64,000 bases of DNA, taken from positions 744,001-808,000 of the forward strand of contig NZ_JARXNQ010000001.1 of the NCBI RefSeq assembly GCF_029872055.1, read 5' to 3'. The translations under genes and the position numbers were made by a program. The notes below the pieces were generated by a model. That model saw only the letters and a list, made by a program, of their open reading frames with translations. It searched no databases and had not been told where the DNA came from. Shown here in pieces: positions 57,044 to 61,019 of the stretch (positions are counted from its first letter, which is position 1; the number at the start of each line of letters is the position of its first letter). This DNA comes from Sulfurimonas sp. C5. Its GTDB lineage: Bacteria > Campylobacterota > Campylobacteria > Campylobacterales > Sulfurimonadaceae.

Positions 57044-58000
57044 TTAAAGGAATACTCCATTTTTAATATAATAAGCAAGTGGATAATAACTTATAGCAAT
57101 AATGTAAGCGATGTTCAGCCATAAAGAGAGCAAAAACCTTCTTTGCAGCTCTTTTTCTTCATACTCTAAGAACGTTAAAGAGATACCGTAAAACGTTCCG
57201 TAAAATAAGAAGATATATAAAAGATACCCAATATACATATAATCTTTTTGAAGCATACAAAATGGACAATGGTGTGTTGGTAATTCGTAGATATATGTTC
57301 CAAAGAAAGAGATAAGAGACAAGAGTGCTATAATCAAAAACGAAAAACTAAATACTCCATATATAATCCTATTTTTCATAAAGTAAGTAACAACCAAAAC
57401 GGCAAAGTTTGCATAAAAAAGAATTGTAAGGAACTTTTCTTTAGCTAATATTTCAGAGATATAAGTCGTATCAGTTACTGAAAAAATTGCACCGCAGCAA
57501 TCAACAACACTAGTAATATCTATACTTGAAAACATCAAAATTTCTACAATAATCTCTATCACTAAAAATACAAATGCAATAAGAAATAAAAGGAACTTGG
57601 CTTTAAAATATCTCTGCTCCTCTGTTTTCATATCTTCACTATTTAAAGTGATCCAAAATGCAAAGAGATAGAGATTTAACATCTTTAAAATAAGCAGAGG
57701 TACTCCATATTCCGTAGCATTTACCACACCTGCTGCACACATTGCACCAACAAGGATATTTGAGAGTTTATCAAGAGTAAAAACAAAAAAAACAAACATC
57801 GGAATTTTAATAAAGAGAATAAACTTGATAATAGTAGAAGCTAAATAGCTCTTTTTTTCAAGGTCATATTGTAATGGTGTATTTTGATTGCGATTGTAGT
57901 TCAGTGCTATTTTTAAACTGTAATAAAAGGCAATCGAAGCAAAACCTAAAAATAAAATATCTAAGATATAGATAGTGAGTATTTCAGGTGTAAAAATCAT
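57044..58000 (-). CDS. Polytopic membrane protein with CC and CPFC motifs, last gene of the NosL/ABC operon
   Basis: The 318-residue protein has about eight to nine hydrophobic segments. Two thiol features stand out: vicinal Cys168-Cys169 (VVDCCGAIF) and a CPFC at 245-248 preceded by HH ('THHCPFCMLQKDYMYIGY'). The second is reminiscent of the DsbB C-x-x-C...Q pattern ('C.LC..Q'), suggesting a role in disulfide chemistry or metal coordination. I do not recognise a defined family. The start overlaps the ABC ATPase stop by 4 nt. Confidence 0.7.
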   Translation of the reverse strand: MIFTPEILTIYILDILFLGFASIAFYYSLKIALNYNRNQNTPLQYDLEKKSYLASTIIKFILFIKIPMFVFFVFTLDKLSNILVGAMCAAGVVNATEYGVPLLILKMLNLYLFAFWITLNSEDMKTEEQRYFKAKFLLFLIAFVFLVIEIIVEILMFSSIDITSVVDCCGAIFSVTDTTYISEILAKEKFLTILFYANFAVLVVTYFMKNRIIYGVFSFSFLIIALLSLISFFGTYIYELPTHHCPFCMLQKDYMYIGYLLYIFLFYGTFYGISLTFLEYEEKELQRRFLLSLWLNIAYIIAISYYPLAYYIKNGVFL

Positions 58001-58653
58001 TCTATTATCTGTCCGTCTTCGATCTCTATTATGCGATCGATAAAATCTAGTTCAAAAAAGAGCGGATCGTGGGTTGCGATAATAATAGTTTTATTTACAG
58101 CTTTTAATCTCTTTAGGTGCTCTATAAATTCTAAAGACAAAGCTCTATCCAAATTTGATGTCGGCTCATCTGCCAAAATGATCTTTGGATCATTTATAAT
58201 GGCTCTCGCAATTGCTACACGTTGCTGCTGTCCGCCTGAAAGGTTTTGAGACATCGTAGCACTGAACTCTTCAAGTTTATACTGAACCAGGACTTTCTCC
58301 AGTCTATCACTCAATTCTTCTTTTGGTAAATTTAGCGGTCGTAGAGGCAGCAAGATATTGTCTGCTACGCTCATATCCGGAATAAGATTGTATTTTTGAA
58401 AAATAAACCCTATATTGTCACGTCTATATTCACTGGCAAAATGATCCGCTATTTTAGAAAGCTTCTTCCCATCTACTATAACCTCCCCTGAAGTCGGTTT
58501 TAACATAGCTGAGATGAGTGAAAGGATAGTTGTCTTACCGCTTCCGCTCACTCCTTTTAAAATGACAAGTTCTCCTTCTTTAAATATTACATTGATACTT
58601 TGTAAAGCATGTTTATCTTTGTAAGATTTATTGATATCTATTAAGCTAATCAT
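57997..58653 (-). CDS. ABC transporter ATPase, MacB/LolD type
   Basis: The 218-residue ATPase has Walker A GVSGSGKTT, Q-loop 'GFIFQKYNLIPDMSV', signature LSGGQQQR and Walker B 'IILADEPTSNLD'. This group (MacB/LolD/FtsE) drives FtsX-type permeases, as the adjacent permease. It overlaps both neighbours by 4 nt, so all four genes are tightly coupled. Its substrate is unknown. Confidence 0.92.
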   Translation of the reverse strand: MISLIDINKSYKDKHALQSINVIFKEGELVILKGVSGSGKTTILSLISAMLKPTSGEVIVDGKKLSKIADHFASEYRRDNIGFIFQKYNLIPDMSVADNILLPLRPLNLPKEELSDRLEKVLVQYKLEEFSATMSQNLSGGQQQRVAIARAIINDPKIILADEPTSNLDRALSLEFIEHLKRLKAVNKTIIIATHDPLFFELDFIDRIIEIEDGQIIE

Positions 58654-59819
58654 CTCATCACCTCATCAGCATCACGTGTTGCAACTCTCCATGAAGGAAT
58701 AAGCGTTGCAGCAATATATACAGGTACACTCAAGAAAAATACTATTGCCAAAGCCTTTATATCGAGTGTAATATCAAGCGACTCGATAGCCGATACATTA
58801 ATGATATTTAAGAAAATATCCCGAATATAATACCCGTCAAAAAGATAAAGATATGCAAGAGCCAGTAATACCCCTAAAATATAAGAGAATAAAGAGACTA
58901 TGCTTGCTTCATACAGTTTTACACGTAAGATATCCTCAACTCTCCATCCTAATGCTTTTAAGATCCCTATCTCTTTTTTTTCAGAGCTGCTGACACCGTT
59001 TGTCTTGTCAAAAATAATCATAAAGAAGGTAAAGACTGCAATTGTAAAGAGTGTAATAAAAACTCCGCTGTCATAATCAAAAAGGTGTTCAACTTTTGTT
59101 TTTTCATCCTCTTTTGTAATAATCTTTGCATTCGGATACAATTGCTGCAGTTTTGTGATCACGCTCATTAATTCATTTGGATTTGAAAGATAAATTGCCA
59201 CATCCGTGATCTCATCAGCTTTATAAGCGAAAATCTCTCTTGCATCCTCTTTACACATAAGACAAAGCTTTTGTTTATCTAACTCTTGAGATTCAAATGT
59301 ACGGGAAAACTTCATCTGCTTTAGATCTAAAGAGGGTTTCACGAAATTAAAATACTCAGTGTAATAATGTCTTTGAAAGATTGAATTTAATTGTGTCGAT
59401 ACAAACATACTATTTGAGCTTAAATCGTTTTGTTTTAAAAGTTCACTTATATAAAGCTTTTTTTGTGTCTCAAAAGGATCGATTCCTATAATTGTAAAAA
59501 CTGTATCAGCCTGTTTATAATCATAGTGACCATATACCCTTCCAAGTACGTCACTTACACCGTAAAATTCAAGTATCTTATCAAGTTTATGATCATCCAT
59601 GGTAGTTGCCTGTAAAGCTTTTTGGTTTTGTACCACAATATCAGGTGAATTTTCCGTCTCAGAAATTACTACCGTTTTTATACTTGTCTGGATAAGAAAT
59701 AACGTAGAGAGCAACATCACTAAGAGTGTATAGATGATCACGATAAAAAGATTTTTCGAAAAGAAACGAAAGAGTGACTGCACTGCATAGAAAAAGAGCT
59801 GTGAATTAAAACTAATCAT
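58650..59819 (-). CDS. FtsX/MacB-like ABC permease
   Basis: The 389-residue permease has an N-terminal transmembrane helix (about residues 19-45), a large extracytoplasmic domain (about 50-250) and a cluster of three C-terminal helices ('VFITLFTIAVFTFFMIIF', 'SIVSLFSYILGVLLALAYLYLF', 'LAIVFFLSVPVYIAATLIPSW'), the FtsX architecture. 'EIGILKALGWRVEDILRVKLYEASIVSLFSYI' is a diagnostic segment. The extracytoplasmic domain includes a CLMC motif. It overlaps the NosL-like gene by 8 nt and the ATPase gene by 4 nt. Confidence 0.9.
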   Translation of the reverse strand: MISFNSQLFFYAVQSLFRFFSKNLFIVIIYTLLVMLLSTLFLIQTSIKTVVISETENSPDIVVQNQKALQATTMDDHKLDKILEFYGVSDVLGRVYGHYDYKQADTVFTIIGIDPFETQKKLYISELLKQNDLSSNSMFVSTQLNSIFQRHYYTEYFNFVKPSLDLKQMKFSRTFESQELDKQKLCLMCKEDAREIFAYKADEITDVAIYLSNPNELMSVITKLQQLYPNAKIITKEDEKTKVEHLFDYDSGVFITLFTIAVFTFFMIIFDKTNGVSSSEKKEIGILKALGWRVEDILRVKLYEASIVSLFSYILGVLLALAYLYLFDGYYIRDIFLNIINVSAIESLDITLDIKALAIVFFLSVPVYIAATLIPSWRVATRDADEVMR

Positions 59820-60477
59820 CTAGAGAGTACACCATATCTTCATTAATTTCATCAAAAGAGAGTATTTTTTCCCCTTTATGATCAAGAAGAAATTTTTTTG
59901 CCGATTTTAATGTTTCAAAGGCAATGAGTTCATTTCCCATCGGACCGTAAACATCACTTCCGATCACAAAAAATGCTTTTGTCGCATCAAGCGTTTTTTG
60001 CGTATAATAATCGGGAACAAGAATATTTTTAATCTCTGTCTTATGCTCAAAATAATATTTAAACAGGTCTTTGTTCCCATCAAAATAGTACTCTTTTGTT
60101 TTGTACTCGATTTTTGCGACCCAAGACGGATACTTATATAAAAACATACCGCAAACCGGACATTTTTCCTCTTTTGAGACCTTCAATTTTTCAAAATGCT
60201 GATGAGTCGATGCTACTCTTTTTACATCCCAGAGATATAAAGCAACAGCTTCAAGATGTTTTGGATTTAACCGTTGACACAAAGTTGTATCTTTTAGGGA
60301 TTGGAATAAACGTTCATAAGAGCTGTACAATGTAAGATCAATCTCTTGACATTTTTTTTCATAGATCATTTTCCCCATAGGATAGATCTTTTTCTCTTTC
60401 ACAGCAGTTGAATAGTTTGATGATGCAAATAATGATATTGATAATAAAAAGAAAAGTAAGGTTTTAAAAAAAGGCAT
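59812..60477 (-). CDS. NosL-like protein with a cytochrome-c-like N-terminal part lacking CXXCH
   Basis: The 221-residue protein has a signal peptide (LLFFLLSISLFASS) and two parts. Residues about 30-95, 'YPMGKMIYEKKCQEIDLTLY...LNPKHLEAVALYLWD', resemble a c-type cytochrome helix layout, but the CXXCH is replaced by CQEID so no heme should attach. The C-terminal part is NosL-like with CPVCGMFLYKYPSW (Cys and Met for copper) and 'YYFDGNKDLFKYYFEH'. NosL proteins deliver Cu(I) to nitrous oxide reductase in other bacteria. It is first in the four-gene operon. Its copper role here is inference. Confidence 0.8.
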   Translation of the reverse strand: MPFFKTLLFFLLSISLFASSNYSTAVKEKKIYPMGKMIYEKKCQEIDLTLYSSYERLFQSLKDTTLCQRLNPKHLEAVALYLWDVKRVASTHQHFEKLKVSKEEKCPVCGMFLYKYPSWVAKIEYKTKEYYFDGNKDLFKYYFEHKTEIKNILVPDYYTQKTLDATKAFFVIGSDVYGPMGNELIAFETLKSAKKFLLDHKGEKILSFDEINEDMVYSLDD

Positions 60478-60536
60478 CTTTTTCCACTTCTTGTATTAAA
60501 GTGGAAAGATTTTATCTAAAAAGTGTTAAATATCTG

Positions 60537-61019
60537 TTAAGCCAGACGAAGCAGCATCAAACGGCGAATAAATAATACTACTAAAGCTACAGCCAAGATT
60601 TTAAAATCTATTTCACTTGCAATATGTATGTTTGCAAATGTATCGCTTTGTGTAGCTTCAGATCCGATTGACTGCATAGCTAAAATTTTTGGTGCATATA
60701 CGGCTGAGAACATCAATGATGTAGCCACTGTTAAAAAAGCACTTACTAAAACAATATTATCGCGTTGTCCCTGTTTGTACATTAACGCTTCATATACCAC
60801 AACATATGCAGCTAAGAAGTAGATCCAGTAAGAAAATCTACGGAAGATCTCACCCATGATAATTCCGGCATTATAATTATCTAGTAAAATTCCCATTAAT
60901 AGTTTGTCTGTATTGAAAATAACGGGAGCAACTATAGCACCAAGTGCCAAAACACCGCCGAAACTTGCTGCTAATACCAATAAATAACTAAAATCTAAAT
61001 AGATATTTCTCTTGTTCAT
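60537..61019 (-). CDS. DUF4149-family membrane protein
   Basis: The 160-residue protein has four transmembrane helices. 'FGGVLALGAIVAPVIFNTDKLLMGILLDNYNAGIIMGEIFRRFSYWIYFLAAYV' fits the DUF4149/TMEM205-like family, found in many bacteria, of unknown function. It overlaps prmC by 4 nt (61016-61019), so the two are probably cotranscribed. Confidence 0.8.
   Translation of the reverse strand: MNKRNIYLDFSYLLVLAASFGGVLALGAIVAPVIFNTDKLLMGILLDNYNAGIIMGEIFRRFSYWIYFLAAYVVVYEALMYKQGQRDNIVLVSAFLTVATSLMFSAVYAPKILAMQSIGSEATQSDTFANIHIASEIDFKILAVALVVLFIRRLMLLRLA

Follow-up and report, generated by a model that had tools for sequence, protein, structure and literature searches.

A conserved, probably copper-handling operon of Campylobacterota, encoding a NosL-domain protein, a type VII-like ABC pair and a cysteine-rich membrane protein

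NosL from Paracoccus is a Cu(I) chaperone, which is required for the CuZ centre of nitrous oxide (N2O) reductase when copper is scarce (PMC6530538). Orphan NosL/NosDFY sets occur in Parageobacillus without nosZ, and another recipient has been proposed for them (PMC13068155). The nos cluster of Sulfurospirillum cavolei contains an unnamed “five-gene insertion” between nosL and nosY, which includes ABC permease, ATP-binding and hypothetical proteins (PMC4794192). ATP-binding cassette (ABC) systems of type VII work mechanically, through movements in the periplasm, and do not carry a substrate across the membrane (PMC5985334, PMC12646458). The copper ligands of OprC are CxxxM and HxM (PMC8610252), and a TonB-dependent copper importer of Bordetella serves respiratory oxidases (PMC12914433). 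The route of copper from the outer membrane to the copper enzymes of Gram-negative bacteria is poorly known. Here, a four-gene operon is described from a 64,000-nucleotide stretch of the genome of Sulfurimonas sp. C5 (assembly GCF_029872055.1, contig NZ_JARXNQ010000001.1, positions 744,001 to 808,000), referred to as the window. The operon encodes a NosL-domain protein, an FtsX/LolC/MacB-like ABC permease, its ATPase and a polytopic protein with a CPFC motif (the CPFC protein), and it is probably a copper-handling module within a copper-acquisition regulon, with cuproenzymes as clients.

All four genes lie on the minus strand. The gene for the NosL-domain protein (221 residues, 59812..60477) is followed by those for the permease (389 residues, 58650..59819), the ATPase (218 residues, 57997..58653) and the CPFC protein (318 residues, 57044..58000), and the overlaps between consecutive open reading frames, starting from CPFC, are 4, 4 and 8 bp. 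The Pfam domains are NosL (PF05573, 114.6 bits against a cut-off of 24), FtsX (PF02687, 47.9 against 25.5) and ABC_tran (PF00005, 122 against 25). A preliminary description made from the sequence alone had proposed such an overlapping operon with no nosZ, oxidase or copper-resistance gene beside it; coordinates, strand, overlaps and Pfam domains agree with that proposal, and none of those genes adjoins the operon in the window genome. It did not mention the invariant GAMC motif of CPFC (residues 85-88), the conserved N-terminal Cys pair of NosL or the conserved promoter box. The conservation, motifs, topology, promoter box and regulon content reported below were obtained by computation.

Of 397 Campylobacterota genomes searched with a CPFC profile, 161 encode the protein; they represent 34 of 68 genera. 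Gene neighbours were counted at the 195 CPFC copies for which 3.5 kb or more of upstream sequence was available, a set that includes close relatives, so that the copies are not independent. The ATPase adjoins CPFC in 191 of them and the FtsX permease is near it in 186, while the full NosL–FtsX–ATPase–CPFC set, with the NosL-type gene upstream, is present in 148. Two deep CPFC clades both retain the arrangement across widely differing surroundings (next to ftsZ, within nos operons, or alongside a CcsBA-type cytochrome c synthase and Sel1 genes), and this persistence is far beyond chance. The co-occurrence of the four families, which the preliminary description had suggested checking, thus extends across related genomes. 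Named CPFC matches in the genome collection come almost entirely from Campylobacterota; the exceptions are two metagenome-assembled genomes (MAGs) labelled Ignavibacteriales and Acidobacteria, which may be mis-binned or products of transfer. At four loci (L107, L115, L143, L197) extra open reading frames, such as one of 900 residues in L143, stand between the permease and the ATPase and are possibly insertions.

The CPFC protein has eight predicted membrane helices and belongs to no known family, with no Pfam match above cut-off, no NCBIfam match and no PDB sequence match. Its five cysteines (88, 168, 169, 245 and 248), and also Met87, Lys106, Trp116, Tyr236, Tyr238 and His243, are invariant throughout a set of 206 distinct homologues. 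The cysteines form three motifs on the minus strand: GAMC (residues 85-88, 57737..57748), where Ala86, Met87 and Cys88 are invariant and Gly85 is found in 205 of 206; the vicinal pair Cys168-Cys169 (57494..57499); and HHCPFC (residues 243-248, 57257..57274), with invariant His243, Cys245 and Cys248. The last two include the vicinal Cys and CPFC features already noticed in the preliminary description. In the AlphaFold2 model (48 sequences; mean predicted local distance difference test, pLDDT, of 82.5) the protein is made of eight long helices and the three motifs sit in loops 2-3, 4-5 and 6-7, respectively, although the CC and CPFC loops are modelled with low confidence. Lys plus Arg amount to 1.4 to 3.7 per sequence in loops 1-2, 3-4, 5-6 and 7-8, whereas the range for loops 2-3, 4-5 and 6-7 is 0.2 to 1.2. 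The Cys motifs are predicted to face the periplasm because their loops are poor in Lys and Arg, following the positive-inside rule.

Comparison of the CPFC model with known folds, among them the four-helix quinone-binding fold of DsbB and VKOR, brought no confident match: Foldseek gave none, and a second aligner (VIA-align) returned weak matches to generic helical bundles, mostly in the first half of the protein. An internal duplication was rejected, with a probability of 0.4% in an hhalign comparison of the two halves. Membership in DsbB or VKOR, families with settled functions that the preliminary description had kept in view, finds no support, as neither the window protein nor 16 homologues match their Pfam profiles.

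The NosL-domain protein aligns to the solved NosL structures 7og7, 7osf and 7znq over residues 91-216. Its copper-site motif CPVCGM (residues 106-111, 60145..60162, minus strand) has Cys106, Cys109, Gly110 and Met111 invariant in 35 homologues. The protein carries an extra N-terminal region (residues 27-95, 60193..60399, minus strand), in which Cys43 is conserved in 34 of 35 homologues and Cys67 in all 35; this region looks like a putative cytochrome c domain without a haem motif. The N-terminus resembles a signal peptide and lacks a lipobox Cys, the first cysteine being residue 43.

The model of the permease (pLDDT 80) shows a helix at residues 20-56, a mixed domain at about 60-246 and helices at 249-272, 294-327 and 354-388, and Foldseek matches it to LolC and MacB at an E-value of about 1e-12. 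As modelled, the permease is of the type VII ABC kind, with a membrane helix, a periplasmic domain and three further helices. The CLMC motif, to which the preliminary description drew attention, occurs in the window copy alone; it was rejected as a metal motif and has no use as evidence.

A direct-repeat promoter box, TTAACA-N5-TTAACA (TTAACAGATATTTAACA; 60524..60540, minus strand), is placed 46 bp upstream of the NosL start and is exact, with a putative -10 element TAAAAT (60509..60514, minus strand) 9 bp downstream of it. The module promoter is the sole place in the 2.06 Mb window genome where the box matches exactly. Across module loci the tandem box keeps the same distance of about 45 bp before the module start. 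With up to two mismatches it is found at 25 of 40 module loci adjoining a DUF4149 gene and at 18 of 43 loci of other contexts, where simple sequence shuffles give means of 1.2 and 1.7, respectively. Two other candidates for regulatory elements were rejected: a CRP/FNR site (TTGAY-N4-RTCAA), whose one-mismatch hits are below chance with none at the promoter, and a perfect inverted repeat immediately ahead of the NosL start, which is not conserved in relatives.

The box also marks other genes with a bearing on copper. Exact boxes number 39 in 12 relatives, against 13 for the reversed pattern, and the box combined with the -10 element occurs 57 times in 60 relatives, against 5. In the 60-genome set, 29 sites have a gene within 160 bp, and 18 of these genes encode an OprC-type receptor, NosL, PCuAC or a multicopper oxidase: nine TonB-dependent receptors, six NosL-domain proteins including that of the window, two PCuAC proteins and one multicopper oxidase. 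The others are one ExbB, two OmpR-type response regulators, one NosL-like candidate without a Pfam match and seven genes without an obvious copper link. All nine receptors carry CPNRM and HxM. The 12-genome set adds sites at nosZ, at four more NosL proteins and at further receptors, and the box is present on either strand in 13 of 40 nosZ upstream regions.

The window genome has boxes with one mismatch 48 bp before the gene of a TonB-dependent receptor (C1:720972) and 44 bp before that of an OprC-like receptor with CPNRM and HPM (C3:13643). The latter receptor scores 114 bits with the TonB-copper model, below its cut-off of 472, and also matches solved OprC chains. In this genome, the response regulator closest to those linked to the box (C4:22732-23370, L387) heads a row of genes that continues with a histidine kinase, ExbB and ExbD, and it is a candidate only for the regulator of the box; a unique assignment was rejected in view of several paralogous response regulators.

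The module is strongly associated with nosZ in relatives. Both were found in 103 of the 397 genomes, the module alone in 58, nosZ alone in 25 and neither in 211, which gives an odds ratio of 15, although the association tests ignore phylogeny and their p values should not be read at face value. The corresponding numbers of genera are 26, 8, 6 and 28, so that 26 of the 34 module-bearing genera also have nosZ. The two lie within 30 kb of each other in 27 of 87 genomes, and at many loci the module is inside or faces the nosG-C1-C2-H-F-Y cluster. This linkage is not tied to one CPFC clade, a candidate explanation that was rejected, since each of the two deep clades has members with nosZ and members without it. 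The module is nevertheless neither restricted to N2O reductase nor needed for it. In two relatives nosZ seems split or interrupted (G245:C1:870653-873755 and G299:C15:19581-21372).

The co-occurrence and linkage with nosZ, together with a published case embedded in a nos cluster as an unnamed insertion (PMC4794192), are what would be seen if the module were dedicated to N2O reductase maturation, supplying copper (or sulfide) to NosZ only, with the window copy being a relic left by the loss of nosZ. That explanation is unlikely, as 58 of the 161 module genomes have no detectable nosZ, among them 10 of the 30 module-bearing genomes of the genus Sulfurimonas, and other genera retain nosZ without the module. 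A decaying relic would, moreover, not be expected to look like the window copy, which is intact, retains every invariant residue and has an exact promoter box. The invariant CC and CxxC on the predicted periplasmic side of CPFC could instead belong to a thiol redox relay, where CPFC would be a new disulfide oxidoreductase acting in the manner of DsbB, VKOR or CcdA, would keep the cysteines of NosL or of another copper protein reduced, and would be fed by the ABC pair. The extra N-terminal Cys pair of NosL could then be its substrate. This proposal is compatible with copper handling rather than exclusive of it, yet as an account in its own right it appears quite improbable: CPFC matches no Pfam model and has no confident fold match, and the invariant Met87 and His243 suit Cu(I) better than pure thiol exchange.

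The likeness of the permease to LolC and MacB in sequence and model might also suggest a transporter of their kind, active in the export of a toxic compound or in lipoprotein release, with NosL and CPFC as accessories. The permease scores are far under the curated NCBIfam cut-offs, however (50 against 362 bits for LolCE, 18.7 against 966 for MacB), the permease and the ATPase are encoded by separate genes, unlike the fused MacB, there is a single permease, no MacA or TolC gene lies within the operon and NosL has no lipobox. Such a role is therefore very improbable. A further candidate source for ABC genes of this kind, considered in the light of the literature, was the P19 iron system of Campylobacter. 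The preliminary description had offered either a dedicated exporter or a thiol/copper relay for an unknown target. The missing MacA/TolC partners and a promoter box common to copper uptake genes speak against export, leaving a copper (or thiol) relay as the best reading; as to the target, the nosZ link in relatives and the copper regulon narrow it in part, while the client in the window organism is a matter of inference.

Several observations count against a copper-handling module of this regulon. Neither nosZ nor nosD is present anywhere in the 99.97%-complete window genome, so N2O reductase is not the sole client and another use is needed, and nosZ does without the module in the 25 genomes given above. 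The Sulfurimonas-genus genomes sampled have no box upstream of nosZ (none of the 13 box-bearing regions is theirs), and clade-B modules in the Sel1 context rarely have one (1 of 13). The window genome itself has just one exact box, and its one-mismatch hits are at the frequency expected by chance (38 against 37 for the reversed pattern), so the two receptor boxes rest on their position and on gene function.

For the copper-handling module, which is still the probable reading, we infer copper as the cargo and the following course of events. Under copper shortage an OmpR-type regulator would act at the box and switch on the OprC-like receptors and the operon. Copper reaching the periplasm would be bound as Cu(I) by the CxxCGM motif of NosL, by analogy with known NosL proteins, and would be passed to CPFC, whose GAMC, CC and HxCPFC motifs may hold it or keep it reduced. 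The FtsX-type permease and the ATPase would power the hand-over by ATP-driven movement in the periplasm, as in type VII ABC systems and NosDFY, as opposed to drug-like export. The clients would be membrane or periplasmic cuproenzymes, presumably the nosZ product where it is present and, in Sulfurimonas without nosZ, most likely a copper-dependent oxidase; the scheme allows delivery to a periplasmic enzyme as well as passage across the inner membrane. It is conceivable, if somewhat doubtful, that CPFC and the type VII ABC pair constitute a new class of ATP-driven mechanotransmission machine, whose task would be to load cuproenzymes or to transport Cu(I) across the inner membrane.

The closest homologues come from Sulfurimonas, and the surroundings are shared with other module-bearing genomes of the genus: ftsA-ftsZ-dnaJ on one side, DUF4149-hemK-M48 peptidase on the other. 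In almost every locus of the genus the DUF4149 gene (60537-61019) immediately precedes the module, and an NCBIfam search gave no match for its product, for CPFC or for NosL. Modules of clade B (L054-L059, L064, L071, L181, L194, L195 and similar loci) stand behind CcsBA-like cytochrome c synthase and Sel1-repeat genes, with a further NosL-like gene after CPFC. In several Sulfurimonas MAGs (L104, L108, L126, L128, L133, L139, L140) genes for a CRP/FNR-type regulator and a multihaem cytochrome come after the module, joined in L139, the one locus where these sequences were read, by those for a response regulator and a histidine kinase.

Elsewhere in the same genome, at 733.1-736.3 kb of C1 (L003) and some 9 kb short of the window, the gene of a NosL-like protein (167 residues) is next to that of a TauE/SafE-like membrane protein (235 residues). 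Such a pair also follows the module in a relative (L070) and may belong to the same copper path. In a region of C5 (L156:8358-15162), genes for a NosL lipoprotein and for a Cys-rich membrane protein are found near a molybdopterin oxidoreductase operon with a large subunit, an NrfD-like subunit and a ferredoxin.

Campylobacterota include important N2O reducers and vent chemolithotrophs, and the module adds to their copper route a family of membrane proteins that is unstudied, together with an ABC pair. The promoter box defines a testable copper-acquisition regulon, whose candidate partners comprise a receptor, chaperones, TonB energisers and perhaps a regulator.

The five-gene insertion of S. 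cavolei is almost certainly the same module. There it lies inside a nos cluster and was left unanalysed, whereas in the window it stands alone in a genome without nosZ. The preliminary description had considered the module undescribed, which holds for its function in the literature searched but not for the genes, seen before without a name (PMC4794192).

OprC/NosA TonB-dependent copper receptors share the CxxxM and HxM ligands with the box-linked receptors, which in turn share the promoter box with the module. Being outer-membrane importers encoded elsewhere in the genome, they are regulon partners of the module and not its relatives. With MacB, LolCDE, FtsEX and YbbAP, the type VII ABC systems, the module has in common the permease topology with a periplasmic domain and, as for LolD and FtsE, a separate ATPase. 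Its partners differ, being NosL and a Cys-rich polytopic protein in place of MacA/TolC, LolA or EnvC, and it falls below all curated cut-offs. If the proposed role is true, the machine formed with CPFC would give type VII ABC systems a metal-handling function that the literature searched does not describe, and would be built on a new membrane family.

The nearest parallel is NosL with NosDFY, where a copper chaperone with a NosL domain is likewise paired with an ABC pair, often in or beside nos operons. The module permease is of the FtsX/LolC type and not NosY, a separate homologue of which coexists with the module in relatives; NosD is missing, and CPFC has no counterpart there. The module NosL differs by its additional N-terminal Cys region and by the lack of a lipobox, and the module occurs without nosZ. 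By this analogy, the module would act like NosL/NosDFY and yet be distinct from it, with another class of permease and a new membrane family.

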